Assembly: GCA_013166775.1 (NCBI GenBank)
Contig: JABLTJ010000008.1
Span: 52,564 to 116,563, forward strand
Length of the DNA stretch: 64,000 nt
Direction: 5' to 3'
DNA from: Promethearchaeati archaeon
GTDB taxonomy: Archaea > Asgardarchaeota > Heimdallarchaeia > Heimdallarchaeales > Heimdallarchaeaceae
Positions 2,835 through 34,294 of this stretch are shown here, piece after piece. The notes beneath the pieces were generated by a model that was not told where the DNA came from, did not search any database, and was given only the letters and a program-made list of their open reading frames with translations. The stretch's first letter is position 1; each line of letters begins with the position of its first letter. A program made the translations under genes and the position numbers.

Positions 2835-3935
2835 TTAGATATTAAATTTACGTTTCTTTCCTGTAATCTCTTGATATAGTTTGTCGATACTATTAGCATA
2901 CTCAGGATACCTAGTATATGCAATTTGGAATGCCATATCTAATTCGGATTCTTCTAGATTAGCAAATTGCTGTTTTGGATTTGTTGTTAAAGCATAATAC
3001 TGTGAGATTATACTTGTGCCTGAATATCTGATGATTTTTACAACTTCTTCCTCTAATTTTCTGACTACTGCATCTATTATATCTTTGTGAGCATATCCTC
3101 CGCCTTCTGCGTCAGCTTGTATTCTTTGTATAATCTTCTTAGAGAAATCACTCTCTTCTCCTCCTTTTGCTGAACCAACCGTCAAATCACAAATAACATT
3201 TGCAGGATAATTTGATAGAAGTTCCGGAGTTGCGAATAAAACATCGAACTGATCAGGTGAAACATATTCAGGTGGGAATAGTGATACTAGTAATTCTCTT
3301 CTAGGTTGAAATGATTGGAGAGAAGATAGAAATGGTTTAACCATCTCTTTTGAGCACATTACTATTACTGGTTTTCCATTTAGTAATGCATGAACTACTC
3401 TATCCTGTCCTTTGATGATTAGTCTCATAAAGAAATAAGGGGACGCGGCAGATCTTACTATTTCTATTGTCTGAACACCAGCTGCAAGATCCTGTTTACT
3501 TTCTAATATAGAATTGAGATTTGTTGCCCAATTGAATACTCTAGTCTTTAGTGATTCATCCATTTGATAGCCTGGCTCATACAAAAGAAGACCTGATATT
3601 TGTTTTGCTGTGTTTGAACTGTGATAATTGAAAACTGGCACTTTTGTGTATAATTGTGATTGTAATTCTTCTGGGATAATAAAGGTAAGACAAGCCATTG
3701 TTATGGGAGATCTCTTGCTTTTGCAAGGAACACCAAAGAAGAAAGAGTAAGAAACTCCACCTATGTCATGAAGTGGCATAACTGCACTCGCTTCTCTTAA
3801 AATATCAGTAGCTGCAGCTCCCATAAGCATACGAATAGATATCTTCTGAGATTCTTCTTCAGATAGATTATCAAAGTATATTGCTTTTGTTCCAACTGTA
3901 TCATCAAATACGCTAAAACAAACTTTGTTTACCAT
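2835..3935 (-). CDS. Predicted longin/DENN-like protein (function unknown)
   Basis: I do not recognise a named archaeal family. The N terminus (KVCFSVFDDTVGTKAIYF) resembles the first hairpin of u-longin domains such as those of NPRL2 and DENN proteins. Residues about 170-260 read like a cDENN core: a hydrophobic strand (ALLNGKPVIVMCS), a helix, LFPPEYVSPDQFDVLFATPELL, and then a buried-looking strand ending in ICDLTVG. A helical tail follows. There is no membrane segment or signal peptide. Eukaryotic DENN modules act on Rab or Rag GTPases, and Rab-like GTPases occur in this window, but the match is by eye and remote. The start is the ATG at 3935; the track's TTG at 3938 is less likely. Confidence 0.4.
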   Translation of the reverse strand: MVNKVCFSVFDDTVGTKAIYFDNLSEEESQKISIRMLMGAAATDILREASAVMPLHDIGGVSYSFFFGVPCKSKRSPITMACLTFIIPEELQSQLYTKVPVFNYHSSNTAKQISGLLLYEPGYQMDESLKTRVFNWATNLNSILESKQDLAAGVQTIEIVRSAASPYFFMRLIIKGQDRVVHALLNGKPVIVMCSKEMVKPFLSSLQSFQPRRELLVSLFPPEYVSPDQFDVLFATPELLSNYPANVICDLTVGSAKGGEESDFSKKIIQRIQADAEGGGYAHKDIIDAVVRKLEEEVVKIIRYSGTSIISQYYALTTNPKQQFANLEESELDMAFQIAYTRYPEYANSIDKLYQEITGKKRKFNI

Positions 3936-11025: not shown

Positions 11026-11036
11026 ACTAATAAAAC
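11026..11036 (+). promoter_or_regulatory. Putative TATA box for the C/D box RNA
   Basis: ACTAATAAAAC is centred about 25 nt before the 5' end of the predicted RNA stem at 11056, as expected for an archaeal promoter. Confidence 0.35.
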
Positions 11037-11055: not shown

Positions 11056-11134
11056 TGAGAATAGTGGACATGAAGAATAATAACAACCACTGAGTTTGTG
11101 ATTTACCTAGCTCACTCTGATTACACTATTCTCA
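11056..11134 (+). ncRNA. Candidate C/D box sRNA, predicted guide for 23S rRNA A2577 2'-O-methylation
   Basis: An 11-bp perfect inverted repeat (TGAGAATAGTG / CACTATTCTCA) closes a 79-nt element. Inside, in order: box C ATGAAGA (11070-11076), a 13-nt guide, box D' CTGA (11090-11093), a 4-nt spacer, box C' GTGATTT (11098-11104), a 12-nt guide ACCTAGCTCACT, and box D CTGA (11117-11120). The two equal guides are the hallmark of archaeal C/D sRNAs. The D guide pairs over 11 nt (one G-U) with GUGAGCUGGGU, the conserved 23S rRNA segment just before U2585. The fifth nucleotide upstream of box D faces A2577 (E. coli numbering). The D' guide target was not identified. Box C has one mismatch, C' has two, and 3 nt separate the stem from each box. 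Confidence 0.72.
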
Positions 11135-11201
11135 TTTTCATCGAAACTCTTAATAGCAATTTTTTTTCTCAATTAGATGAAAGGTTCAGTGGTCGCTTTT
11201 A

Positions 11202-12839
11202 ATGGATGAAAAGAACTCCCAAAAACAGCATAAGTCTAGATTTTGGAGAATAACAGGCACATCACTTTATTTCTTCACACTAGTTGTCTTAGTTGTTGGT
11301 TTAATTTACCTCATATGGTCTTCGAGATTAATCATAATGGAGAGAAGACTTTTTCCAAATGATTTTTCAATTGGTGCAGTCATACTGAACTTCTTATCAC
11401 TACTTGTTGAGGTTATAGGAATTCTCTACACTGTTATGCTCTTCAAACATATAGGAACAACAAGTTACCACTCTCCCATTGATGTTAACCAAAAGAGTAT
11501 TACTATCGAAGAATATCCTCAAGTAAGTGTATTAATTCCTATTCATGAAGCCATCCCTAGTATTTTGGAATTAACTCTAAAATCAGTAATAAATTCCAAT
11601 TATCCAAGAGAAAAAATAGAGATTATATTAGGCGATGATACGAACGAAAATTATGACAAACTTCCTCAAATCAGAGAATTAGCATCAAGATATGATTCTT
11701 CTTACATACATGATATCTCCAACTTGAATTTTAAGGCGGGAATGCTAAACATTATGTTAAAAGAGATTAAATCAGAATTCATAGTTTTCCTTGATTATGA
11801 TCATAAAATGTCCAAGAACTTTCTAAAACAATCTATTAGTATTTTAGTTGAAGATGATAAATTAGCATTTGCTCAATCTAAAGTGAATTTTTACAATATT
11901 CAATCAAAACTCCAAATATGGGAATCAGTAATGTATGCGCAGTTTTTCGAAATTTTCCAGCGTTCAAAGAATCAAAGACAAACAGTACTCTTTAATGGTT
12001 CAACTGCCTGTTTTCGTAAAAAAATCTTGGACGAAATTGGAGGAGTACCTATCAACACGTTTACTGAAGACATAGATCTTTCGATACAAATATTGTCTAA
12101 AGGCTATTCATCTAGATTAATAGATGATTATGGAAGTTTAGGATTAATTCCCGCTAACTTTTCTTTATTGCTATCCCAAATATTACGCTGGGCAAAAGGT
12201 AGTATGCATACGCTGAAGAAAAGATGGAGAAAAATACTTTTTTCCAAATTATCATTTTATGATAAAGTGGATCTTTTCTTTAGTACCTCTCTCTTCTTCA
12301 TAGCGTCCTCTATGTATTTGACGATTTTATTCTACGTAATTATGTTTTTCACAGGGAACAAAGCGGTAAGATTACCTATACAGGATTTTCTCCCTTTAAT
12401 CATAATGCCTATATCCTTCGTTATTGCCTATCAGATTTCTGGTTTAATTGCAATAATTTTTGCAAGAAAAAATGGCTTAACCCACATGAAAATTTATGAT
12501 TTAGTATTATTCTCAATTATTGCTTTAGCCCTAAATCCATTTACAGTATATGCCGTTTTAAAGACTGTTTTTAGAGTTAGACCACCAGAAAAAGGAAGAG
12601 ATACTTGGAATGAAAAAATTCCAATTATTCCATTTTCATTACTCTTTACATTATTGGGAGTTGGAATACTGATTATTGCATTCTTTGATTTCTTTGGAGG
12701 AACTAAAACACTATGGTTAGTCCTGTTTTTACTAGGGTCATCGTTAATAGCAACTTTTCCTGTCTCCCTTTATTACCACCTTACAACTCGCCATAACAAA
12801 CCTTATTTTTACCAACATTTATCACAAGATATTGAGTAG
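11202..12839 (+). CDS. GT2 processive glycosyltransferase, cellulose-synthase-like (first copy)
   Basis: This membrane glycosyltransferase probably polymerises or extends a surface polysaccharide from nucleotide sugars. Two N-terminal membrane helices precede the GT-A domain (about 100-350). That domain carries GDD, LDYDHKM (D-x-D-like metal site), TEDIDLS and the processive motif QILRWAKG (QxxRW). Four to five C-terminal helices follow. It heads a three-gene operon with 6 nt to the next gene. The leader contains a TATA-like CTTAATAGC near 11150, and the candidate C/D RNA lies just upstream. The sugar is not predictable. Confidence 0.85.
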   Translation: MDEKNSQKQHKSRFWRITGTSLYFFTLVVLVVGLIYLIWSSRLIIMERRLFPNDFSIGAVILNFLSLLVEVIGILYTVMLFKHIGTTSYHSPIDVNQKSITIEEYPQVSVLIPIHEAIPSILELTLKSVINSNYPREKIEIILGDDTNENYDKLPQIRELASRYDSSYIHDISNLNFKAGMLNIMLKEIKSEFIVFLDYDHKMSKNFLKQSISILVEDDKLAFAQSKVNFYNIQSKLQIWESVMYAQFFEIFQRSKNQRQTVLFNGSTACFRKKILDEIGGVPINTFTEDIDLSIQILSKGYSSRLIDDYGSLGLIPANFSLLLSQILRWAKGSMHTLKKRWRKILFSKLSFYDKVDLFFSTSLFFIASSMYLTILFYVIMFFTGNKAVRLPIQDFLPLIIMPISFVIAYQISGLIAIIFARKNGLTHMKIYDLVLFSIIALALNPFTVYAVLKTVFRVRPPEKGRDTWNEKIPIIPFSLLFTLLGVGILIIAFFDFFGGTKTLWLVLFLLGSSLIATFPVSLYYHLTTRHNKPYFYQHLSQDIE

Positions 12840-12845
12840 ATCTGT

Positions 12846-14495
12846 ATGAAATGGAAAAAAGTACTTTGGTATAGTTTAACCATTTTGTTACTTGGTTTTC
12901 TAACATACTACATTATTTTCAGTACTGTTCACATAATTAGAGAATTTTCCAGAACAGATGCTATCTGGAAACAGGTTATTACTCTTATTTGTAATTTTAT
13001 CATTCTCTTAGCAGAACTTTTTTCCGCCTTTTATTCAGTCTTTATTTATTATTTTATTGGTTCTTCTTCCAATTATAAAATAATAAAAGATGAAAAGAAT
13101 TCTTTTCTTACTCAAGACCCTCTTCCAAAAGTTGTTGTTGCAATCCCATTGTATAAAGAACCTTTAGCAGTTGTATCAGAAACTATCAAGGGAGCATTAC
13201 AGATTGATTACCCAAAGGATAGGTTTGAGGTAATAATTTTGGATGATAGTCCTCCTGACCATTCAACAGATATTGAATTCTTCTGCAAAGAAAATGGTGT
13301 GGGTTTTGTACAAAGAAAATCAAGAAAAGGTTTCAAAGCAGGTGCAATCAACAATCTTCTGAAACAGATTGAATGCGACTTTTTCAGTGTTCTTGATTCT
13401 GATCACATTCCTACTCCTAATTTCATAAAAACATGCTTATCTGGCTTTGTTTCTGATGATATAGTGCTAGTACAGGGAAAACCAATGTTTGTCAACCAAG
13501 ATGATTATTTGATGAGAAGCAGTGCATATATTCATACTCAATTCTTCCATATCTACCAAAAAAGTAGGGGAACTAGAGGTGGGGTGATTTTTGCAGGAAC
13601 AACTGGTATGTTTCGTGCTGATTTATTAAAGCAATTTGGAGGTTTTCTTGAAGACACTTTGGCTGAAGACACAGATACATCTTTTGCTCTAATGTCAGAA
13701 GGATACAAGACAAACTACATTCATGAAATTTGTTCTAAGGGTTTAGTACCTTGGAATCCGATCAGTATGATTAATCAAGTTTGGAGGTGGACTAACGGAA
13801 TTACCTCGATTTTTCGAAAGAGACTCCTTAGAATTCTTAGAGGAAAAAATTCATTCATTAATAAATTAGACATTATGAGCACAATTTCCACCCCCATAAT
13901 AGGTGTATCAATATGGTTTGTTAACCTATTGCTCTATATAATGTATAAGACAGGAATAGAATTTCTTAGACCCGATTTAGCTCAAACTATACCTCTCTTA
14001 TTGCTTGCTCCTATTCTAATTTCATTTGCAAGTTTGATTATGGCATTAGTGTCCTGGCGAAGAGAAGAAAAAGAAGATCGGATGATACGACTTCGAGGTT
14101 TCTTTGGAATGATATGGACAATATTAGCATTTTATTTACTAATGCTTACAGCTCAATCATTCCTTGTTTGGGCAGTTTTGAGTGCTTTATTTGGAGTTAA
14201 GAAGGATTTTGATAGAACAGTGAAAGAAAAGACCATTACCATGGGGAAGATGAGTCAGAAACTTAAATATACTATTTGGTCTTTAGGATTGTTAGGATTG
14301 TCAATATTATACTACATTGCAAGCTGGGAAACATTCAAAGCTGGAAATGCTCTCTTTGGATGGTTTATTATAGCTGCAATTTCAATAACTATACCAATAA
14401 TTATAACCATTACACAGTTTAGAAAATTAGAAATAATGAAAATATTTGCAGCGACAAAAACTGCTGCTGATGTTGAAAAAGAATACGGGGAATAG
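12846..14495 (+). CDS. GT2 processive glycosyltransferase, cellulose-synthase-like (second copy)
   Basis: A paralogue of the preceding gene with the same architecture: two N-terminal helices, a GT-A domain with LDDSPPD, LDSDHIP, LAEDTDTSFAL and QVWRWTNG (QxxRW), then C-terminal helices. The two proteins are almost the same length (545 and 549) and probably arose by tandem duplication. They may work as a pair or on different donors. The next gene starts 3 nt after its stop codon. Confidence 0.85.
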   Translation: MKWKKVLWYSLTILLLGFLTYYIIFSTVHIIREFSRTDAIWKQVITLICNFIILLAELFSAFYSVFIYYFIGSSSNYKIIKDEKNSFLTQDPLPKVVVAIPLYKEPLAVVSETIKGALQIDYPKDRFEVIILDDSPPDHSTDIEFFCKENGVGFVQRKSRKGFKAGAINNLLKQIECDFFSVLDSDHIPTPNFIKTCLSGFVSDDIVLVQGKPMFVNQDDYLMRSSAYIHTQFFHIYQKSRGTRGGVIFAGTTGMFRADLLKQFGGFLEDTLAEDTDTSFALMSEGYKTNYIHEICSKGLVPWNPISMINQVWRWTNGITSIFRKRLLRILRGKNSFINKLDIMSTISTPIIGVSIWFVNLLLYIMYKTGIEFLRPDLAQTIPLLLLAPILISFASLIMALVSWRREEKEDRMIRLRGFFGMIWTILAFYLLMLTAQSFLVWAVLSALFGVKKDFDRTVKEKTITMGKMSQKLKYTIWSLGLLGLSILYYIASWETFKAGNALFGWFIIAAISITIPIIITITQFRKLEIMKIFAATKTAADVEKEYGE

Positions 14496-25645: not shown

Positions 25646-26356
25646 ATGATAGAGAAAACTTCACCACTTATTATAGCGCATAGAGGTTCATCAGAAGAAG
25701 CTTATGAGAATTCAATGGAAGCTTTCAATCTTGCAGTTTCACAGAAAGCTGATATGATAGAATTAGATTCTCATTTAACTAGTGATGGTATTTTCATAAT
25801 ACACCATGATAAAAATATTGTATTTGAAAATAAAAAATATCTAATAAAAGAAACTCCATTCAAAGTTATAGAAAAGATACAATTGCCAAATGGTGAGAGT
25901 ATTCCAATTTTGGAAGACGTTTTAAATGATTTATTACCAAACATTCAATTTAACATTGAGATCAAGTGCAAGATAAACAAGCAAGAACTAGATATTTTAC
26001 TCAAGAGAGTTGGACAAGATAATACCAGAATTGTCGTCAGTTCTTTTAGAAGAGATGTTATGCATGAATTGAAATCTTCAAACATGGAATACAGATTAGC
26101 TTTTCTTTATATGATTCCAAGTACTGTAAGTAGGAGAATGTCTGATAAAAGTTATATTCACTCCTTGAATGCTTATCACAAATTCCTTTCCTCCAGAATT
26201 ATTGAACTATATCACAAAAAGAACAAAGAAGTAAACGCTTGGACAGTCAATAGGGAAGATGACATTAAGAAGTTTGTAAGATTGGGAGTAAACGGTATAA
26301 TTACAGATCATCCACCTAGAGCTATGAAAATAATTAAATCAATTAATCAAGTCTAA
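25646..26356 (+). CDS. Glycerophosphodiester phosphodiesterase family protein
   Basis: A TIM-barrel enzyme that hydrolyses glycerophosphodiesters to glycerol phosphate and an alcohol. IIAHRGSSEEAYENSMEAF holds the catalytic His-Arg, DMIELDSHLTSDG the metal-binding Glu and Asp, and IFIIHHD the second His. INVEIK-type strand INFNIEIKCK and C-terminal NAWTVNREDD and GVNGIITDHP complete the barrel. Length 236, no signal peptide, so cytosolic. TATA-like AATTTAATAC lies 21-30 nt before the ATG. Its last codons overlap the convergent next gene by 4 nt. Confidence 0.9.
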   Translation: MIEKTSPLIIAHRGSSEEAYENSMEAFNLAVSQKADMIELDSHLTSDGIFIIHHDKNIVFENKKYLIKETPFKVIEKIQLPNGESIPILEDVLNDLLPNIQFNIEIKCKINKQELDILLKRVGQDNTRIVVSSFRRDVMHELKSSNMEYRLAFLYMIPSTVSRRMSDKSYIHSLNAYHKFLSSRIIELYHKKNKEVNAWTVNREDDIKKFVRLGVNGIITDHPPRAMKIIKSINQV

Positions 26357-27066
26357 TCTTCAATTCTCTTGATTAAAGAGAACGTATATTCTTGCCAATC
26401 TGTGATAGAATTTATCCTTTCGAAAGTTTTTTTCATATCAACATCTTCTACATAAAATATCATACTAACGATTTCAGGAGTGAAGCCATTCTCTATGACA
26501 CCTCGGTAATCTTTAGGCTCTTCAATAATCTCTAGTTGATATGTGTCATTCTTTGAAACCATCAGCTCAATGAGCTCAGGTTTGATTCCCTTTTCAATTG
26601 TATTGTAAATTTGTATGAACTCTGTTTTCTTAGCTAGTTCTTTGCTGACCCTAAGCATTGAGGAGGAGTACCCCCCCTCATCAATGAAACTTGGGATTAA
26701 CCAAAACGATTGACTTGGAAGAGTTATTTCTATATTGGAAACCTTGTTCTTATCTTTGATACTCTCTATATCCTGTATCAGTTGATTAGCGGTAGTAATA
26801 TTTTGGTGAGTTTTCATAATTACTATCTCATCAACAATTAGAGAATCGATTGTTTTCTCTGATTCTTCATCTTGTTCTTTTTCTAGAAACCAGATAAGAT
26901 ATCCTATTTTTTCACTGTCTTGCTTAATCAAGTTAATTTTTGCTTTCTTTGTAAGAAAAGTAGAATCAATCAAATCTTGTGGTGAAATGTCCTTCCCATA
27001 AATCTCTTTGAGTACGTTCTTTAAATCAGTAGAAGCTTCTGGATTGGAAAGCTCTTCTAATGTCAT
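26353..27066 (-). CDS. Hypothetical protein, possible degenerate GNAT fold
   Basis: Unrecognised family. The order of a mixed sheet (KINLIKQDSEKIGYLIWFLE, IDSLIVDEIVIM, a helix, NIEITLPSQSFWLIPSFIDEGG) loosely recalls a GNAT acetyltransferase. However, the acetyl-CoA loop (R/Q-x-x-G-x-G/A) is absent. The C-terminal ~90 residues could be a second alpha/beta half. No membrane segments. Start at ATG 27066; the track's TTG at 27069 is unlikely. TATA-like TTATTAAAAG precedes it. Confidence 0.45.
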   Translation of the reverse strand: MTLEELSNPEASTDLKNVLKEIYGKDISPQDLIDSTFLTKKAKINLIKQDSEKIGYLIWFLEKEQDEESEKTIDSLIVDEIVIMKTHQNITTANQLIQDIESIKDKNKVSNIEITLPSQSFWLIPSFIDEGGYSSSMLRVSKELAKKTEFIQIYNTIEKGIKPELIELMVSKNDTYQLEIIEEPKDYRGVIENGFTPEIVSMIFYVEDVDMKKTFERINSITDWQEYTFSLIKRIED

Positions 27067-27181
27067 CAAAAACTTGTAACGCTTTTAATAAATAAAGGTG
27101 ACCATTCAATCTAATTCAATTCTTTAAGTGAACTGAATTTTGAGATAATCAAAAGAAAGGAAAAAAAGGGTTTTACTCCGC

Positions 27182-27589
27182 TTATGATGGAGTAAATACT
27201 GCTGTACCTATTGCTGTACTTTCACCAGAAGAGAAGTTTATTGTTAATGTATATTCTATTCCAATTGTAAAAGATCCAGTAAAAACTATCTGTTTTGTAG
27301 CACCGTTTGATATCGAAAACGGTTCTGTTGAATCTAATACAAGATACGATACTATTGGAGATGCAGATACATCCGTATACAGTATATCGTTACCTTCAGC
27401 TTGGATTGTAATAGTGACTGTATAGTTTAAACCATCACCTGCTAAAACAACGTTGGATTCTTGAACAATTGCTTTTGGTGCTGGATTTAGCATAGGTATA
27501 ACAACTAAAAATACAATTGCTGCTGCAGCTGTTACCAGAGCAATAAGTAGAATTGTTGCGATTACTGGAGATACACCACGTTTTTTCAT
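27182..27589 (-). CDS. Archaeal type IV pilin-like protein
   Basis: The N terminus MKKRGVSPVIATILLIALVTAAAAIVF is a class III signal: a basic n-region, processing after the Arg-Gly-type site, then a ~20-residue hydrophobic helix that would pack in a filament core (archaeal pilin N-terminal domain, DUF1628-like). The remaining ~95 residues are beta-rich and form the exposed head. No assembly ATPase or prepilin peptidase lies nearby. A strong Shine-Dalgarno (AAAGGAG, 9 nt before ATG) and a palindrome beside the TATA box suggest strong, regulated expression. Confidence 0.85.
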   Translation of the reverse strand: MKKRGVSPVIATILLIALVTAAAAIVFLVVIPMLNPAPKAIVQESNVVLAGDGLNYTVTITIQAEGNDILYTDVSASPIVSYLVLDSTEPFSISNGATKQIVFTGSFTIGIEYTLTINFSSGESTAIGTAVFTPS

Positions 27590-27598
27590 AAATTTATA

Positions 27599-27634
27599 CT
27601 CCTTTAGATTTTAAAGTAGTCAATTCTTTTTATG
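27599..27634 (-). promoter_or_regulatory. Pilin promoter and strong Shine-Dalgarno
   Basis: On the minus strand a TATA-like CATAAAAAG (27626-27634) precedes AAAGGAG (27599-27605), which is 9 nt before the pilin ATG. Unlike the leaderless neighbours, this gene appears to have a short leader with a good ribosome binding site. Confidence 0.45.
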
Positions 27635-27640
27635 TTTCTT

Positions 27641-27658
27641 GTTACTTAAAAAAGTAAC
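27641..27658. promoter_or_regulatory. Perfect palindrome GTTACTT-AAAA-AAGTAAC beside the pilin TATA box
   Basis: Two 7-nt arms around AAAA lie directly upstream of the pilin TATA box and about 65 nt from the divergent gene's promoter. The symmetry and position suit a dimeric repressor or activator site. It could also be a chance AT-rich palindrome. Confidence 0.4.
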
Positions 27659-27722
27659 GATAGTATTAAGCGAGCATTTGGACAAAGTCTCTAATTCACG
27701 GTCTTTTGCTAATTAACAATGG

Positions 27723-27730
27723 TTTATATT
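27723..27730 (+). promoter_or_regulatory. TATA box of the zinc-ribbon protein gene
   Basis: TTTATATT lies 29-36 nt before ATG 27759. This fits a leaderless mRNA and argues against the track's GTG start at 27732. Confidence 0.45.
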
Positions 27731-27758
27731 AGTGTATGTGTTAAGATTATTGAAGAAA

Positions 27759-28454
27759 ATGGACACTACTGCTAATATAATTTTTAGATCAATTAGCGCG
27801 ATATATGAAAGCGCAATTAGTGGTAGTGCTCTTTATCCAACTTTATATTTTGAAGATAATGAGAGAGACAATACATACTATGGTTTTAGATTAAATGAGG
27901 TTATTCCTACTAGATTAATAATACGAACATATGAAGAAGGAAAAAGTTGTTTTGTTGATATGCTGTGGTTTGTGGATGATTCCAAGATCGAAGGTAAAGG
28001 TTGTGTAACATTTTACCCAAAAAGTAATGAGATCGCTGTGAAAGGAGATTCGAAGGATTTTATTTCTAAACTTCAATCTGATGCAACAATTGAAGCATGT
28101 TACAAAGATCTTATTGAACCATCTGGATTTCTGAATAAAGTAATTGTGGGTACTAAGAACTCTTGTCCTTCAAAACTCCAAAACGAAACTAAATTGAATC
28201 TTAGTAATTTACCAACAAATCTATTTGCTTTTTCCAGATCTACTTTGAATCTAAAGAAAATCAAAGATGAATCTTATCAAGATGTTGCTATTAATGGTTT
28301 TCTTGCTGTAATCGATTTATTACACAGATCATTGGAAATACTCAGCTCTCATGCTCAGACAAAACTAGATAGCAAAACATTCTGCATACGATGTGGTGAA
28401 AAACTCCCAACAGATTCATATTTCTGCCCAATTTGTGGAACAAAACAGGGATGA
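27759..28454 (+). CDS. Hypothetical protein with C-terminal zinc ribbon
   Basis: Unrecognised. The last ~25 residues (FCIRCGEKLPTDSYFCPICGTKQG) form a C-x2-C...C-x2-C zinc ribbon. The upstream ~205 residues are alpha/beta, with no catalytic motif, membrane helix or signal peptide. The start at ATG 27759 (MDTTANIIFRSI) is preferred on promoter spacing. It is divergent from the pilin gene with the palindrome between them. Confidence 0.55.
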   Translation: MDTTANIIFRSISAIYESAISGSALYPTLYFEDNERDNTYYGFRLNEVIPTRLIIRTYEEGKSCFVDMLWFVDDSKIEGKGCVTFYPKSNEIAVKGDSKDFISKLQSDATIEACYKDLIEPSGFLNKVIVGTKNSCPSKLQNETKLNLSNLPTNLFAFSRSTLNLKKIKDESYQDVAINGFLAVIDLLHRSLEILSSHAQTKLDSKTFCIRCGEKLPTDSYFCPICGTKQG

Positions 28455-28471
28455 GTTTTCCGCAATATCTT

Positions 28472-28807
28472 TTAAGTGTGATATAATATCTCTGCTTTTT
28501 CAATTAGTTCTAAAGTATCAGTTTGATTAGCTAGATCCCTTGCATTAGGTGAAAAATTATTTGCTACTACAAAACCTCCACTAAGATTTGATCTTTGTAT
28601 TATACGTTCTATGTGAATTATTTTATCAGTACCCACAGACCTTTTCCAATCTAAAATCCACACCCCTACGAGAAGTTCTTTGATTATTATTATAAATTCG
28701 ATTGAATGTTTAGGAGGTCCCTGAATCAAGGATAAATTATGAGTAATATTTCCAAAATTCTTCAAGTATTCTAGAGCTAATTCGATTAGAGGTTTATCTC
28801 GGTCCAT
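28472..28807 (-). CDS. Small Mrr-like PD-(D/E)XK restriction-endonuclease-fold protein
   Basis: At 111 residues this is a minimal Mrr-type catalytic domain. The strand GVWILDWKRSVG supplies a D-x-K catalytic pair. The later GGFVVANNFSPNARDLANQ and LELIEKAEILY match the GIlVTt.sFt..A..lA...iElid pattern of Mrr-type nucleases. The N-terminal acidic residue is less clear. There is no DNA-recognition domain and no methyltransferase nearby, so it is not an ordinary restriction system. A TATA-like TATTTTAATAG lies 27-38 nt before the ATG. Confidence 0.6.
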   Translation of the reverse strand: MDRDKPLIELALEYLKNFGNITHNLSLIQGPPKHSIEFIIIIKELLVGVWILDWKRSVGTDKIIHIERIIQRSNLSGGFVVANNFSPNARDLANQTDTLELIEKAEILYHT

Positions 28808-28914
28808 AAGTCACACGCAGACAAAGTTAACAACTATTAAAATATTTGTATGAATTATTTCGAATTTTGTCGGGATTTTTATTGAATTTACATGACTTTT
28901 AGTTCTCTTAAATT

Positions 28915-29229
28915 CTATTCCTCAACTTCAATCTCTATACTTTTAGTATTGCAATGAACCGTCCACTTTCCACCTGATAAAAATGTAAGTAAAAATTCTT
29001 TCTTAAAATCCTTTATTACTTGAATAGCAATAGTATTTGGTTCCTTCTTTGCAAATAATCGAATTTTAACTATTTTTCTATCTTCATCAAAATCCAGAGT
29101 TTCAGGTAATAATTTCCATGAAGGATCACCTAGATATCCTTTAACAATTAGAGTTGTTTGAACTCCTCTTTTTATTTCTTCTTGAAAAATCAATTCTGTA
29201 ATACTAGCTGCTTTCTGAAATTTTTTCAT
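28915..29229 (-). CDS. Small hypothetical protein, predicted beta-sandwich
   Basis: Unrecognised. Of 104 residues, most form alternating beta strands (TTLIVKGYLG, KIVKIRLFAKKE, TIAIQVI, KEFLLTFLSGG, SIEIEVEE). There are no cysteine pairs, signal peptide or membrane segments. ATG 29229 is preferred to the track's TTG at 29241. Divergent from the signal peptidase gene. Confidence 0.45.
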   Translation of the reverse strand: MKKFQKAASITELIFQEEIKRGVQTTLIVKGYLGDPSWKLLPETLDFDEDRKIVKIRLFAKKEPNTIAIQVIKDFKKEFLLTFLSGGKWTVHCNTKSIEIEVEE

Positions 29230-29310
29230 CAAAAGAATCAAGAAAACTCTGAATATAAATTTAGTTATCGATTTTTGTAAAACAACACGCTATCTAATAA
29301 AAGGAAATGT

Positions 29311-29318
29311 TTTATAGT
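29311..29318 (+). promoter_or_regulatory. TATA box of the signal peptidase gene
   Basis: TTTATAGT starts 29 nt before ATG 29340; the same TTTATAG box occurs before the genes at 51143 and 55046. Confidence 0.5.
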
Positions 29319-29339
29319 ATCTGATATACAAAAAGAATA

Positions 29340-30524
29340 ATGTCTTCATCTTTGTCTAAATTTCTGAAGAAAATTGATATCAAAGAAACTGCAATTATGA
29401 TTGTTATTGCAATCGCTTTATTCTTTCTTGTTAAGATGATGTTTGGTGGTGTTTTAGGAGTATCATTGGTAGTCATAGAAAATGGACCATGTCCAAATTC
29501 TTCAATGTGTCCTACATATGATCAAGGAGATATGTTTCTCATATTCAAAAATAAACCAGAAAACATTCAACTTGGAGATGTAATTGTTTATGAATCTGCA
29601 ACAGTATATAGCAGAGGAACTTTAATCATTCACAGAGTTGTTAATATTACAGTTATAACTGATACTGAGGGTGATCACTATTATTTTCTAGTAAGTGGAG
29701 ATAATCCATCTTCAAATAACTATATAGATTATTATGACTCAACAACTCACTTTATACCCTATGAAGCTGTTTTAGGGAAAACAAAACTTATCATTCCCAA
29801 ACTTGGGTACGTAAAACTCTGGTTATCCATTCCAGATTTTATCTGGCTACGTTATGTTTTAATTGCAGTACTTCTAGGCCTAGCAGTATATTTGATATTC
29901 GCACCTGATGATAAAGATAAGAAGAAGAAAGATGAAGAACAAGAGAAAACAGATGCTGAAGTAACAAAAGAAGAATCCAAAGAAGAAGATTCAAAATTTA
30001 GTTTTAAAGACATACTTAATACTTTCTGGATTAAAACAAAGAAATTTTTTGTCGAACTTGTTACTGTTCGCAAGAAAAGAATTAAGTTAATTATTACTGC
30101 TTCAGTAATCATCTTCCTAATAATTTTCATACCGGTGCTTGACACTTTGATTAAATCACCTGGTGTCGAAACAGGAATCGATAATGTTGTTCTCTTATCA
30201 GCTACAAGCTTTATTGGAGAAGATATTGTATTTCTCCCATTCAACATCTATTTCAAACACGATGGTTCATGGAACACAGTTCTAAAGAGTTTTGAAGTGA
30301 TTGGAATACAAAATGGTTCTATTTTGGCAACAATGAAATGGGGATCGTACACTCAAATTGAAGGTGATAATATCATAGGAGGCTCTTTAATTTTCGATTC
30401 AAATCAGTTTAATGCCAATGAATCACTTACAATTAGCATTTCTTATATTATACATTACAGATTTGGTTCAGATGTACCTCAAGTATTTGAGGATATTTTT
30501 GACCCGCCCTATTTGCAAATTTAA
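29340..30524 (+). CDS. Sec11-type signal peptidase I with C-terminal membrane and ectodomain extension
   Basis: It cleaves signal peptides from exported proteins. After the first membrane helix, PNSSMCPTYDQGD has the catalytic Ser box (S-M-x-P). GTLIIHRVV carries His instead of the bacterial Lys, as in archaeal and ER Sec11 enzymes. SGDNPSSNNYID supplies the Asp box. A second helix, a long Lys/Glu cytosolic linker, a third helix (IKLIITASVIIFLIIFIPVL) and a ~115-residue beta ectodomain follow. Archaeal Sec11 is usually 150-250 residues, so the C-terminal half is an addition. It may recruit substrates. Confidence 0.85.
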   Translation: MSSSLSKFLKKIDIKETAIMIVIAIALFFLVKMMFGGVLGVSLVVIENGPCPNSSMCPTYDQGDMFLIFKNKPENIQLGDVIVYESATVYSRGTLIIHRVVNITVITDTEGDHYYFLVSGDNPSSNNYIDYYDSTTHFIPYEAVLGKTKLIIPKLGYVKLWLSIPDFIWLRYVLIAVLLGLAVYLIFAPDDKDKKKKDEEQEKTDAEVTKEESKEEDSKFSFKDILNTFWIKTKKFFVELVTVRKKRIKLIITASVIIFLIIFIPVLDTLIKSPGVETGIDNVVLLSATSFIGEDIVFLPFNIYFKHDGSWNTVLKSFEVIGIQNGSILATMKWGSYTQIEGDNIIGGSLIFDSNQFNANESLTISISYIIHYRFGSDVPQVFEDIFDPPYLQI

Positions 30525-30561
30525 AAAGAAAGCTCCCTCTACTCTATATTACTATAAAACA

Positions 30562-31428
30562 TCATATATTCTCTTTTATCTTTAATGGAATTTCATTAGG
30601 GGTTTTTACAGTGGTTATACCTGCTTCACTAAGTATTCTCATCTTTTCTTGAGCTGTGCCTGATTTACCATGAACAATAGCGCCAGCGTGACCCATTTGT
30701 TTTCCAGGAGGTGCTGTCTGACCGGCAATAAATCCATAAACTGGTTTAGAAATTTCAGTTTTAACTAAATCTGCTGCTTCTTGTTCTCCTGTTCCACCAA
30801 TCTCCCCAACTAGAACGATGTGCTCTGTCTGTGGATCTTCTTCAAACCATTTCAAGCATTCATTAAATCCTATCCCTTTTATTGGATCACCACCTAATCC
30901 TACACAGGTTGATTGACCAAAATCATTGATTGTTAGATTCTGAATAATTTCATAGGTTAATGTTCCACTTCTACTTACTATTCCAACATTACCTTGTTTG
31001 CATATTTCTCCTGGAATTATACCTATCTTACTCTCTCCTGGAGTGATTATACCAGGGCAATTGGGACCAATCATTATTACATTTTCTTCCTGTACTCTTT
31101 GTTTGATTTTAGCGGTATCCTTGATTGGCACTCCTTCAGTAATAACGGTAAGCAATTCAATCCCTGCATCAATTGCTTCTAAAGCAGCAGAATAGGTGAA
31201 TCTTGCAGGAATGAAAATAACAGAAGCTGTTGCTTGTGTCTCTTTGACTGCTTCTTTCATGCTATCATAAACAGGAACTCCCAAATGCTCTTGTCCCCCT
31301 TTTCCTGGAGTTACTCCTGCTACAACTTTTGTTCCATATTCTATCATAGACCGTGCATGAAAAGTTCCTTGTTTTCCTGTGATGCCTTGAACAATAACTC
31401 TTGTGTTTTTATCTAATATAATTGCCAT
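30562..31428 (-). CDS. sucD: Succinyl-CoA synthetase alpha subunit
   Basis: With SucC it converts succinyl-CoA, ADP (or GDP) and phosphate to succinate, CoA and ATP (GTP). RVIVQGITGKQGTFHA is the CoA-binding Rossmann start, SRSGTLTYEI contacts phosphate, and GKQMGHAGAIVHGKSG carries the phosphohistidine. Length 288 is standard. It starts 1 nt after sucC, so the two are one operon. It could serve the oxidative or the reductive direction of the TCA cycle. Confidence 0.96.
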   Translation of the reverse strand: MAIILDKNTRVIVQGITGKQGTFHARSMIEYGTKVVAGVTPGKGGQEHLGVPVYDSMKEAVKETQATASVIFIPARFTYSAALEAIDAGIELLTVITEGVPIKDTAKIKQRVQEENVIMIGPNCPGIITPGESKIGIIPGEICKQGNVGIVSRSGTLTYEIIQNLTINDFGQSTCVGLGGDPIKGIGFNECLKWFEEDPQTEHIVLVGEIGGTGEQEAADLVKTEISKPVYGFIAGQTAPPGKQMGHAGAIVHGKSGTAQEKMRILSEAGITTVKTPNEIPLKIKENI

Positions 31429-31429
31429 T

Positions 31430-32572
31430 TTAGTTTCCTCCTTTTACAAGTTCAACAATTCTTTTTGCTGCAGGTTCCATTTTTCCATAAGCGTTAATAC
31501 CATTTTCTTCCAGTATCTGAATGCCCAGATCATCATTAGTACCAACAAGTCGTATCACCATTGGAACTTTAATTTCATATTTTTTTGATGCATTGATAAT
31601 CCCATTTGCAACGTCATCACATCGAGTTATTCCCGCAAAGAAGTTTACAAAAATTCCTTTGATATTCTGCCTTGAAAGAATTTCCAGAGATTTCTCAATT
31701 TTAGTTTCATCAGCACCACCACCAACATCTAGAAAATTAGAAGGTGAGCTTCCATAAAATTCCAGCAAGTCACAAGTTGCCATTGCAAGTCCAGCACCAC
31801 CAGATATTATTCCAATCTCTCCGTCAAGTTGTACATAACTTATACCTGATTGATCAGCTTCAAATTCTAAATCGGTATGTCTGTCTCTTTGAGATTTAAG
31901 ATTTGCAATATCAAGTTGTCGATAATCAGCGTTTCCATCGATAACAACTTTTGAATCAGCAGCAATTATCTGCTTATCAGGAGTTAAAATCAAGGGATTA
32001 ATTTCTATAAGTGTAAGGTCTCTTTTTTGTGCCATTTTAAACATGTTAGTCATAATATTGGTGAACGAGGTTAGAGTTCGAGCTTCAAATCCAAGTTTTT
32101 TTCCAAGGTCTATGAACATGTAAGGCTGTGGTTCACTAAAAACAGAAAAATAATCTTTGTAAATTTCATCAGGATATTTTTCTGCTACCTCTTCAATGTC
32201 AACTCCACCTCGTGAACTAGCTAAAACCAGATATTTGCTAGATGCATTATCAAGCATTATAGACAAATAATACTCGTTTTCAATTTCCATTGGTTCTTCA
32301 AGCATGACTAAATCGACAGGTTTTCCTCTATGATCTCTACCAAGTATACTTTGAATATAGTCTTCTGCTTCAGATGTTTTAACTTTTTTTATCAACCCAG
32401 CTTTTCCTCTTCCTCCTGAAAGAGCTTGAGCTTTAGCCATCATGATGTCATTACCTAATTCTTCAGCAAAAGTCTTGATACTGGAAACTCCATCGTAAGC
32501 TTTGAATTTCGGAACAGGAATTCTGTTCTCTTTGAATAATTGTTTTCCCTCAATTTCATAAAGCATTGGCAT
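31430..32572 (-). CDS. sucC: Succinyl-CoA synthetase beta subunit
   Basis: ATP-grasp subunit pairing with SucD. MLYEIEGKQLFKENRIPVP is the canonical N terminus, MAKAQALSGGRGKAGLIKKV the ATP-binding loop, and the C-terminal CoA-ligase domain has ISGGAGLAMATCDLL. Length 380 is typical. ATG 32572 (ATGCCAATG; the second ATG at 32566 is also possible) follows a TATA-like CCTTAAAAA by 26 nt. Direct repeats flank that TATA box. Confidence 0.96.
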   Translation of the reverse strand: MPMLYEIEGKQLFKENRIPVPKFKAYDGVSSIKTFAEELGNDIMMAKAQALSGGRGKAGLIKKVKTSEAEDYIQSILGRDHRGKPVDLVMLEEPMEIENEYYLSIMLDNASSKYLVLASSRGGVDIEEVAEKYPDEIYKDYFSVFSEPQPYMFIDLGKKLGFEARTLTSFTNIMTNMFKMAQKRDLTLIEINPLILTPDKQIIAADSKVVIDGNADYRQLDIANLKSQRDRHTDLEFEADQSGISYVQLDGEIGIISGGAGLAMATCDLLEFYGSSPSNFLDVGGGADETKIEKSLEILSRQNIKGIFVNFFAGITRCDDVANGIINASKKYEIKVPMVIRLVGTNDDLGIQILEENGINAYGKMEPAAKRIVELVKGGN

Positions 32573-32587
32573 ATTGTAACCAACTGG

Positions 32588-32616
32588 CTTTGAAGTCTTT
32601 TTAAGGTCTTTGAAGT
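32588..32616 (-). promoter_or_regulatory. sucCD promoter: TATA flanked by 9-bp direct repeats
   Basis: On the minus strand ACTTCAAAG occurs twice (32588-32596 and 32608-32616), exactly 20 nt apart, on both sides of the TATA-like CCTTAAAAA (32598-32606). This would place regulator subunits on the same DNA face around the core promoter. A second direct repeat (AATATGTTCAA at 32625 and 32640) lies further upstream. Confidence 0.4.
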
Positions 32617-32691
32617 AAGCTCATAATATGTTCAAGGAAAATATGTTCAATACTCTCTATATCGATTGTAAAATAGAAAGAGATTGTTAAG

Positions 32692-32994
32692 TTATTTTAC
32701 GAATTCAACTCTTTTAGTTCGTGGATATGATAATACCCATTTCTTACTACATTCTGGGCAAGTAAGTCTTAAATCCACCTTTTTAGAGGTTTTAGAAGCC
32801 ATCTTTGTTTGAGTGACTGGTCTCTTACTAAATCTGCCTTTATTACCATACCCTCGTCTCTTACGCTTCTCTCTTCTAGACATTGCGGAAAATCCTCCTT
32901 TTCTTCTAGCACTTTTTTCTTGCTTTACTTTCATACTTTGGTGTTTTCCACAATTTGGGCAGTATTTATTCATTATTTCTGGTATTTTAACCAT
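32692..32994 (-). CDS. rpl44e: Ribosomal protein L44e
   Basis: Large-subunit protein of archaea and eukaryotes. The zinc ribbon is CPNCGKHQ near the N terminus and CPECSKKW near the C terminus. Between them is the basic, rRNA-binding stretch RKGGFSAMSRREKRKRRGYG. The length is about 100 residues. ATG 32994 (MVKIPEIMNKYCPNC) is chosen: GGTGAG lies 8 nt upstream, while the track's GTG at 33003 would overlap that site. rpoK lies just upstream. The usual partner S27e is not adjacent here. Confidence 0.95.
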   Translation of the reverse strand: MVKIPEIMNKYCPNCGKHQSMKVKQEKSARRKGGFSAMSRREKRKRRGYGNKGRFSKRPVTQTKMASKTSKKVDLRLTCPECSKKWVLSYPRTKRVEFVK

Positions 32995-33066
32995 TTTCGT
33001 CACTCACCATAGTGCTTGGACTAGTATTTTTATTTGTTTCCTTTTGTGAGTATGATGAAGGAAATA

Positions 33067-33384
33067 TCAAACTTCTCTAAGAGCTTGAATATCTCTTAGT
33101 TTTTGCAAAGGTATAACCTGAAAGGTTCTGTTAGGCATTTCTCGTCTTATACTCAACGGAAGAATTTTAGCTCTTAATTCCATCTCTGCAATTACAAGAG
33201 GTGATTTTGCTTCAAGATTTTCCATTTGTAGAAGAACGGGAGCTCCCATACTTAGTTGGAGTGCACGAGCACCGACAATTCTTGCTCTTTCAAAGCGAGT
33301 AATACGATCAGGACCAACCTTCACTGATTTCGATACAATTTCTAACTCCTTCTCTGTTGCGTCCTCATCTGTAATAAGTGCCAT
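33067..33384 (-). CDS. rpoK: DNA-directed RNA polymerase subunit K (Rpb6 homologue)
   Basis: Small assembly subunit of RNA polymerase, homologous to eukaryotic Rpb6 and bacterial omega. The core [21 protein letters not shown] is diagnostic, followed by the conserved basic/hydrophobic tail [16 protein letters not shown]. At 105 residues it includes a short acidic N-terminal extension, as in Rpb6. It precedes rpl44e on the same strand with a 70-nt gap. Confidence 0.95.
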
Positions 33385-33678
33385 AATCGTTCACCAAAAC
33401 CTATCAACTGAGATTACAAATTCAGACGCTTGTCTCATCTTAAAAATATTTAGTTAGATGGGAAATTAGAGGGATACTTAATAAAAACTTTATTGTAATG
33501 CTTTGCTGATAAAAATATGTGCAATTGGAAATATTTTAATACCGACACAAAAGCAGAAAACTGATGGAATTTGAAGTGATTGGGCTCTAGAACTGTGAAA
33601 GTTCATTTGCATATCTGGAAAAACTTTAATAAGAAATTAACACCGAATTAAACAGACAGAGCGAGAAGAAAAACAACA
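33385..33678. other. Intergenic region, no gene seen
   Basis: This AT-rich stretch between divergent rpoK and the Arf-like gene contains several TATA-like runs (CTTAATAAAAACTTTATTG, AAACTTTAATAAG) but no ORF, tRNA or convincing C/D box arrangement on either strand. Confidence 0.5.
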
Positions 33679-33687
33679 CTTATAAAA
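33679..33687 (+). promoter_or_regulatory. TATA box of the Arf-like GTPase gene
   Basis: CTTATAAAA lies 41-49 nt before ATG 33728, predicting a leader of about 15-20 nt. An out-of-frame ATG at 33718 lies within that leader. Confidence 0.5.
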
Positions 33688-33727
33688 CCACTACGAAAAG
33701 TAAAATAATAAAACGGAATGTCAGTAC

Positions 33728-34294
33728 ATGAGCATGTTTGGTTCGTTTTCCTCATGGTTGAGAGCAAAACTAAAGAAAGAGCAAAAGGCTAAAATATTGA
33801 TATTAGGGCTGGATGCAGCAGGTAAAACAACCTTAACTCGATTTATGAGATTTGGTAGATTTGCAGAAAACCTCACACCGACCATCGGGCAAAACATTGA
33901 GTCGTTTGAATTTGAAGGATGGACTATAACAGCTATAGATGTTGCAGGACAATCACATTTTCGTTTCCTATGGGAAGCACATTATCCAGGATGTAGTGCT
34001 GTTATTTTTGTTATTGATGCAGCTGATATTGAGCGTCTTCCTGAAGCAAGAGACGTACTCAAGACTCATGTTTTTAACAACCCTTACATGGAAAATGTGC
34101 CTACATTAATCATGGCAAACAAGCAAGATCTCCCTGGAGCAGTAGAGGCCCCATTATTAATACAAATGTTAGGGTTGCATCTTGATTTGAAAGATAGAAC
34201 ATTCGCTGTTTTTGATACTAGTATTCTACATGGGAAGGGAATTAAAGAAGCATTTACTTGGCTTGTAAATGAACTAGATACACATCTAGAATAA
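33728..34294 (+). CDS. Arf/Arl-family small GTPase
   Basis: Eukaryote-like GTPase. P-loop GLDAAGKTT is the Arf-family signature. TPTIGQN is switch I with its Thr, DVAGQ is the G3 motif (a mix of Arf DVGGQ and Ras DTAGQ), ANKQDLPGA is G4, and G5 is a weak DTSIL. An amphipathic N-terminal helix (MFGSFSSWLRAKLKKE) precedes the fold, as in Arf proteins. The Gly2 needed for myristoylation is absent. Length 188. It stands alone with its own promoter. Likely role in membrane or cytoskeletal regulation, inferred only from family. Confidence 0.93.
   Translation: MSMFGSFSSWLRAKLKKEQKAKILILGLDAAGKTTLTRFMRFGRFAENLTPTIGQNIESFEFEGWTITAIDVAGQSHFRFLWEAHYPGCSAVIFVIDAADIERLPEARDVLKTHVFNNPYMENVPTLIMANKQDLPGAVEAPLLIQMLGLHLDLKDRTFAVFDTSILHGKGIKEAFTWLVNELDTHLE

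Follow-up and report, generated by a model that had tools for sequence, protein, structure and literature searches.

The window analysed here, a 64,000-nt stretch from a member of the archaeal family Heimdallarchaeaceae, carries a C/D box sRNA gene at 11056-11134 on the forward strand, and every letter of it is as given in the first-pass annotation. The gene occupies a 220-bp spacer; upstream lies a gene of 338 amino acids without a match in Pfam, downstream a family 2 glycosyltransferase gene, and all three share the same orientation. Its 5' portion reads TGAGAATAGTG GAC ATGAAGA... and it is ended by the closing arm CACTATTCTCA, TGAGAATAGTG and CACTATTCTCA forming 11 perfect pairs. Inward of one bulged A, two further pairs (A-U and G-U) extend this terminal stem to 13 pairs, reaching the kink-turn, such that the complete 5' arm (TGAGAATAGTGGA) spans 11056-11068 and the 3' arm (TTACACTATTCTCA, including the bulged A) spans 11121-11134. 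Between the arms lie box C (ATGAAGA, 11070-11076), the 13-nt D' guide ATAATAACAACCA (11077-11089), box D' (CTGA, 11090-11093), box C' (GTGATTT, 11098-11104), the 12-nt D guide ACCTAGCTCACT (11105-11116) and box D (CTGA, 11117-11120). Box D (CUGA) and the stem abut, as a kink-turn requires. Box C (AUGAAGA in this species) departs from the consensus RUGAUGA, whereas most orthologues carry the canonical ATGATGA. The internal boxes, D' as (C/A)TGA and C' as an invariant RTGA, are present in all single-copy orthologues, with ATGA as the D' box in most relatives, and the spacer between them is 4 nt here and 4-6 nt overall. Downstream, the window encodes two consecutive family 2 glycosyltransferases (11202-14495) that are distantly similar to each other, and the same gene order follows the sRNA in those relatives with enough flanking sequence.

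The sRNA probably has its own promoter, with transcription starting near the first base of the stem, because a TATA-like box (CTAATAAAAC, 11027-11036, +) precedes the stem, its best-scoring window having its midpoint at -25.5 relative to the first stem base. Of the 15 orthologues checked, 14 have a comparable window with its midpoint between -23 and -27. Most archaeal C/D genes lack an apparent promoter of their own, only some 20% having one (PMC7994747), and the element differs from them in this regard. A further TATA-like motif, CTTAATAG, preceded by a GAAA motif, lies at approximately 11148-11155 (+), and a similar motif occurs downstream of several orthologues; it probably does not belong to the sRNA but serves as promoter for the glycosyltransferase gene that follows. 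These signals bear on the proposal that the element is a cis-acting leader, i.e. a kink-turn hairpin in the 5' region of the glycosyltransferase mRNA that regulates via L7Ae and guides nothing in trans. In every case the element does sit immediately 5' of this glycosyltransferase gene, and a role of L7Ae in controlling translation through kink-turn binding has been suggested (PMC5539422). However, the TATA-like box some 25 nt ahead of the stem and the second motif behind the sRNA suggest separate transcripts, and not only the kink-turn but also the guides count among the best-conserved parts of the element, the guides tracking 23S rRNA complementarity. We consider a cis-acting leader very unlikely.

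Conservation of the element is extensive within its own family. BLAST searches with the element recovered orthologues from its own genus and family, and a covariance model found them in 21 of the 23 genomes of its GTDB family (E 1e-8 to 1e-19), in agreement with the initial description of a C/D box guide RNA with an 11-bp perfect inverted repeat and boxes C, D', C' and D. The named records containing orthologues are Candidatus Heimdallarchaeota MAGs, and the two genus members lacking a match are incomplete genomes. Beyond the family, phylum-wide models run over 227 genomes yielded weak matches only (E 0.015-0.09 per genome, not significant). The flanking genes were the same at each orthologous locus tested, with neighbour protein identity falling to about 40%. 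Over 20 distinct sequences, 86.9% of stem cells are paired and six pairs are changed on both sides; the inner pairs vary among GC, AU and GU, while the outer GAG/CTC becomes GGG/CCC in a sister clade. Stem covariation in relatives, the absence of which had been named beforehand as grounds for rejecting the annotation, was 0.279 in an alignment fitted to the structure, compared to 0.194 when shuffled (0/500 as high), and slid versions did not exceed 0.138. The sign was the same for 13 sequences aligned by MAFFT without such fitting (0.209 vs 0.145, 2/500). The fold of the single sequence is modestly better than that of its shuffles (z -1.98, 7/200 as good). Two genomes (G008 and G005) also contain a second copy in tandem, some 80 bp further downstream (L009 1340-1419 and L010 1666-1744, respectively). 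The second copy of G008 retains the D guide, has CGGA as box D, and has its D' guide moved by 3 nt in the A-loop (U2555), while the D guide of the second copy in G005 has no 23S match.

The individual boxes are short, and 11 of the 542 CTGA sites in the window (2%) are accompanied by an 11-bp match to rRNA; such a guide match is by itself weak evidence. One could accordingly imagine box motifs that happen to be arranged at random in an AT-rich spacer. The element is nonetheless far above chance, because orthologues occur throughout the family and always between the same two genes; this conservation refutes a random arrangement, and the covariation and the lack of a second candidate in 442 kb add to it, leaving chance with virtually no probability. 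The latter scan, which covered 442 kb of the genome with the window included and required C/D boxes with a stem of at least 5 bp, matched solely this element, and its reversed-sequence control gave no match. C/D RNAs thus seem few in this genome, with no other in about 378 kb beyond the window, as judged by a strict scan of uncertain sensitivity in a MAG that is 88.7% complete. Matches to the stem sequence GAGAAT...TATTCTC in the same genome included no other C/D RNA. Two matches to a canonical C/D pattern in this genome were both coding-like, as was a pattern match in G221, and pattern matches labelled Chloroflexota look like repeated coding sequence instead. No Rfam family reached threshold with the sRNA, the best being SNORD51 (23.7 bits vs a cut-off of 50).

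The D guide provides the clearer of two predicted targets. The organism's own 23S rRNA (L001) contains GTGAGCTGGGT at one place only, and the D guide pairs there over 11 nt (one G-U) with GUGAGCUGGGU, exactly as had been proposed. By the N+5 rule, this specifies own 23S base 3021, the equivalent of A2577 in E. coli numbering, which we checked on MG1655 rrlH across an ungapped stretch against the organism's own 23S rRNA and which upholds the original assignment. Since the target stretch is nearly universal, its presence in the organism's own rRNA is a weak test. Among the main clade, CCTAGCTCAC of the D guide is invariant. In the sister clade, the D guide is CTCAGCTCAC or CTCGGCTCAC, and when compared to the 23S target of the window organism, 11 nt are still paired, with the G-U pair moved to another place. 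Changes in the guide that preserve pairing are the pattern to be expected under selection for complementarity.

The D' guide had been given no target, even though it is in register with U2552; the initial reading of the guides was thus right for D and incomplete for D'. Its core, AACAACC, pairs with A-loop 23S GGUUGUU, and ACAACC is invariant in single-copy orthologues while the rest of the guide is variable. ACAACC sits in N+5 register with own 23S base 2996, the U2552 equivalent, which places the two predicted targets 25 nt apart. Contiguous D' pairing amounts to 7 bp here and to 6-9 bp elsewhere in the main clade, including relatives with fewer than 7 bp, mostly below the 9-bp rule of Dennis et al., which is relaxed for double guides (PMC4644070). 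In most of the sister clade (L093-L097), GCGAACAACCT and GGGUUGUUCGC form 11 pairs, one of them G-U, again with N+5 at U2552. We infer that the D' guide directs U2552 methylation, on 7 contiguous pairs only in this species. It could be argued instead that only the D guide works, with the D' guide being either an orphan or a sequence that pairs without methylation, while an FtsJ/RlmE enzyme methylates U2552. The short pairing is compatible with this, 28% of Pyrobaculum guides lack a clear target (PMC7994747), and the genome has a strong FtsJ-family gene whose product could methylate U2552 without a guide. Yet the invariance of ACAACC in all single-copy orthologues falls exactly at the positions U2552 requires, and the sister clade pairs over 11 bp in the same register, which makes a single-target guide somewhat unlikely. 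With a probability of roughly 0.87, we regard the element as a C/D box sRNA gene that encodes an archaeal-type double guide for U2552 and A2577.

Very probably, then, the RNA directs methylation at two neighbouring sites in the catalytic core of the ribosome. The genome encodes fibrillarin, Nop5 and two L7Ae-family proteins. The Nop5 and fibrillarin genes are side by side on G000 contig C94, and the FtsJ/RlmE-family gene lies on the same contig about 6 kb before them, the three falling within 26072-34147. Expression, RNP assembly and methylation can be envisaged from these components. The sRNA would be transcribed from its own promoter, beginning at the terminal stem; box C/D would form a kink-turn and box C'/D' a kink-loop bound by L7Ae, after which Nop5 and fibrillarin would join the RNP. 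The D guide would pair with the 23S rRNA beside the peptidyl-transferase centre, leading to 2'-O-methylation of A2577, and the D' guide would pair with the A-loop, leading to methylation of U2552. Both duplexes may additionally chaperone folding of this 23S region. The unusual part of the sRNA is its long, nearly fixed outer stem. It may stabilise the termini of a transcript that has a promoter to itself, or may equally well serve in protein recognition or processing.

Compared to known systems, the layout is archaeal: guides of 12-13 nt, a D'-C' spacer of 4-6 nt, a well-formed C' box and two linked targets. Archaeal C/D box sRNAs (Breuer 2021, PMC7994747) share with it the boxes C, D', C' and D, guides of 12-13 nt, and a pair of targets less than 100 nt apart in the region of helices 90-93. 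Double guides are common among them, and U2552 is a predicted target in five of the species studied by Dennis et al. (PMC4644070). Pyrococcus abyssi sR25 is likewise predicted to target A-loop U2552, as cited in PMC2584109. The closing stem distinguishes the present RNA from the general archaeal type, having 11-13 bp and a nearly fixed outer sequence. It had initially been taken as a eukaryote-like trait, a view that the archaeal box spacing and linked double targets do not support.

The comparison with eukaryotes concerns positions rather than sequence. A2577 corresponds to yeast Am2946 (snR71) and human A4493 (U29, SNORD29) (PMC8307265, PMC3542256); yeast Um2921 and Am2946 are 25 nt apart (PMC8307265), as are U2552 and A2577, which bears out the correspondence to Am2946 suggested initially. 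There is no significant sequence match to snR71/U29, and the SNORD29 model scores the sRNA at 14 bits (E 5.3) against a gathering score of 48, so that this family is not recognised. In yeast, snR52 and Spb1 both serve Um2921, the D' target position (PMC8307265), and a guide candidate and an FtsJ-family enzyme are also both present here. Unlike the present RNA, snR52 also guides 18S Am420, and yeast uses a separate RNA for position 2946 (PMC8307265). In two Sulfolobales genomes, we observed a C/D-like element containing CCCAGCTCACTCTGA, with CCCAGCTCACT as its A2577 guide (L066 5010-5057 and L078 7074-7121). Its position is orthologous in the two genomes, where it overlaps an opposite-strand gene resembling speD at that gene's 3' end; as an A2577 guide it is suggestive only. 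The sites are eukaryote-shared in the sense that both occur in yeast, but they are no sign of a special eukaryote link, because U2552 is modified in all domains (PMC2584109) and a candidate A2577 guide occurs in Sulfolobales. Shared sites do not establish shared descent with eukaryotic guides. That an A2577 (and A-loop) guide is old within the Asgard archaea, and that the eukaryotic Am2946 guide (snR71/U29) descended from it, is a conjecture we regard as doubtful. Touching on this question, a candidate C/D RNA in another Asgard family (G036, L099 1501-1570, -) addresses both of these target regions but is closed by a 5-bp stem unlike the one described here (TTGCG/CGCAA). Its box C is GATGATGA and it has no clear D' box; GGCGAACA forms 8 bp with the A-loop, while its D guide matches the A2577 site over 12 nt, three of the pairs being G-U. 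The model score of this candidate alone is not significant (E 0.02-0.03 per genome). If common descent were true, part of the eukaryotic snoRNA set would be traceable to the archaeal host.

Our literature search turned up no C/D guide RNA described from Heimdallarchaeota, which are close relatives of the eukaryotes; for the guide presented here there are orthologues, stem covariation and two specified target sites. Both predicted sites are at the peptidyl-transferase centre and both are methylated in yeast. The RNA predicts Um2552 and Am2577 for any study that maps modifications on Asgard ribosomes, and it can serve as a seed model in working out which of the rRNA methylations of eukaryotes may have already been guided in archaea.
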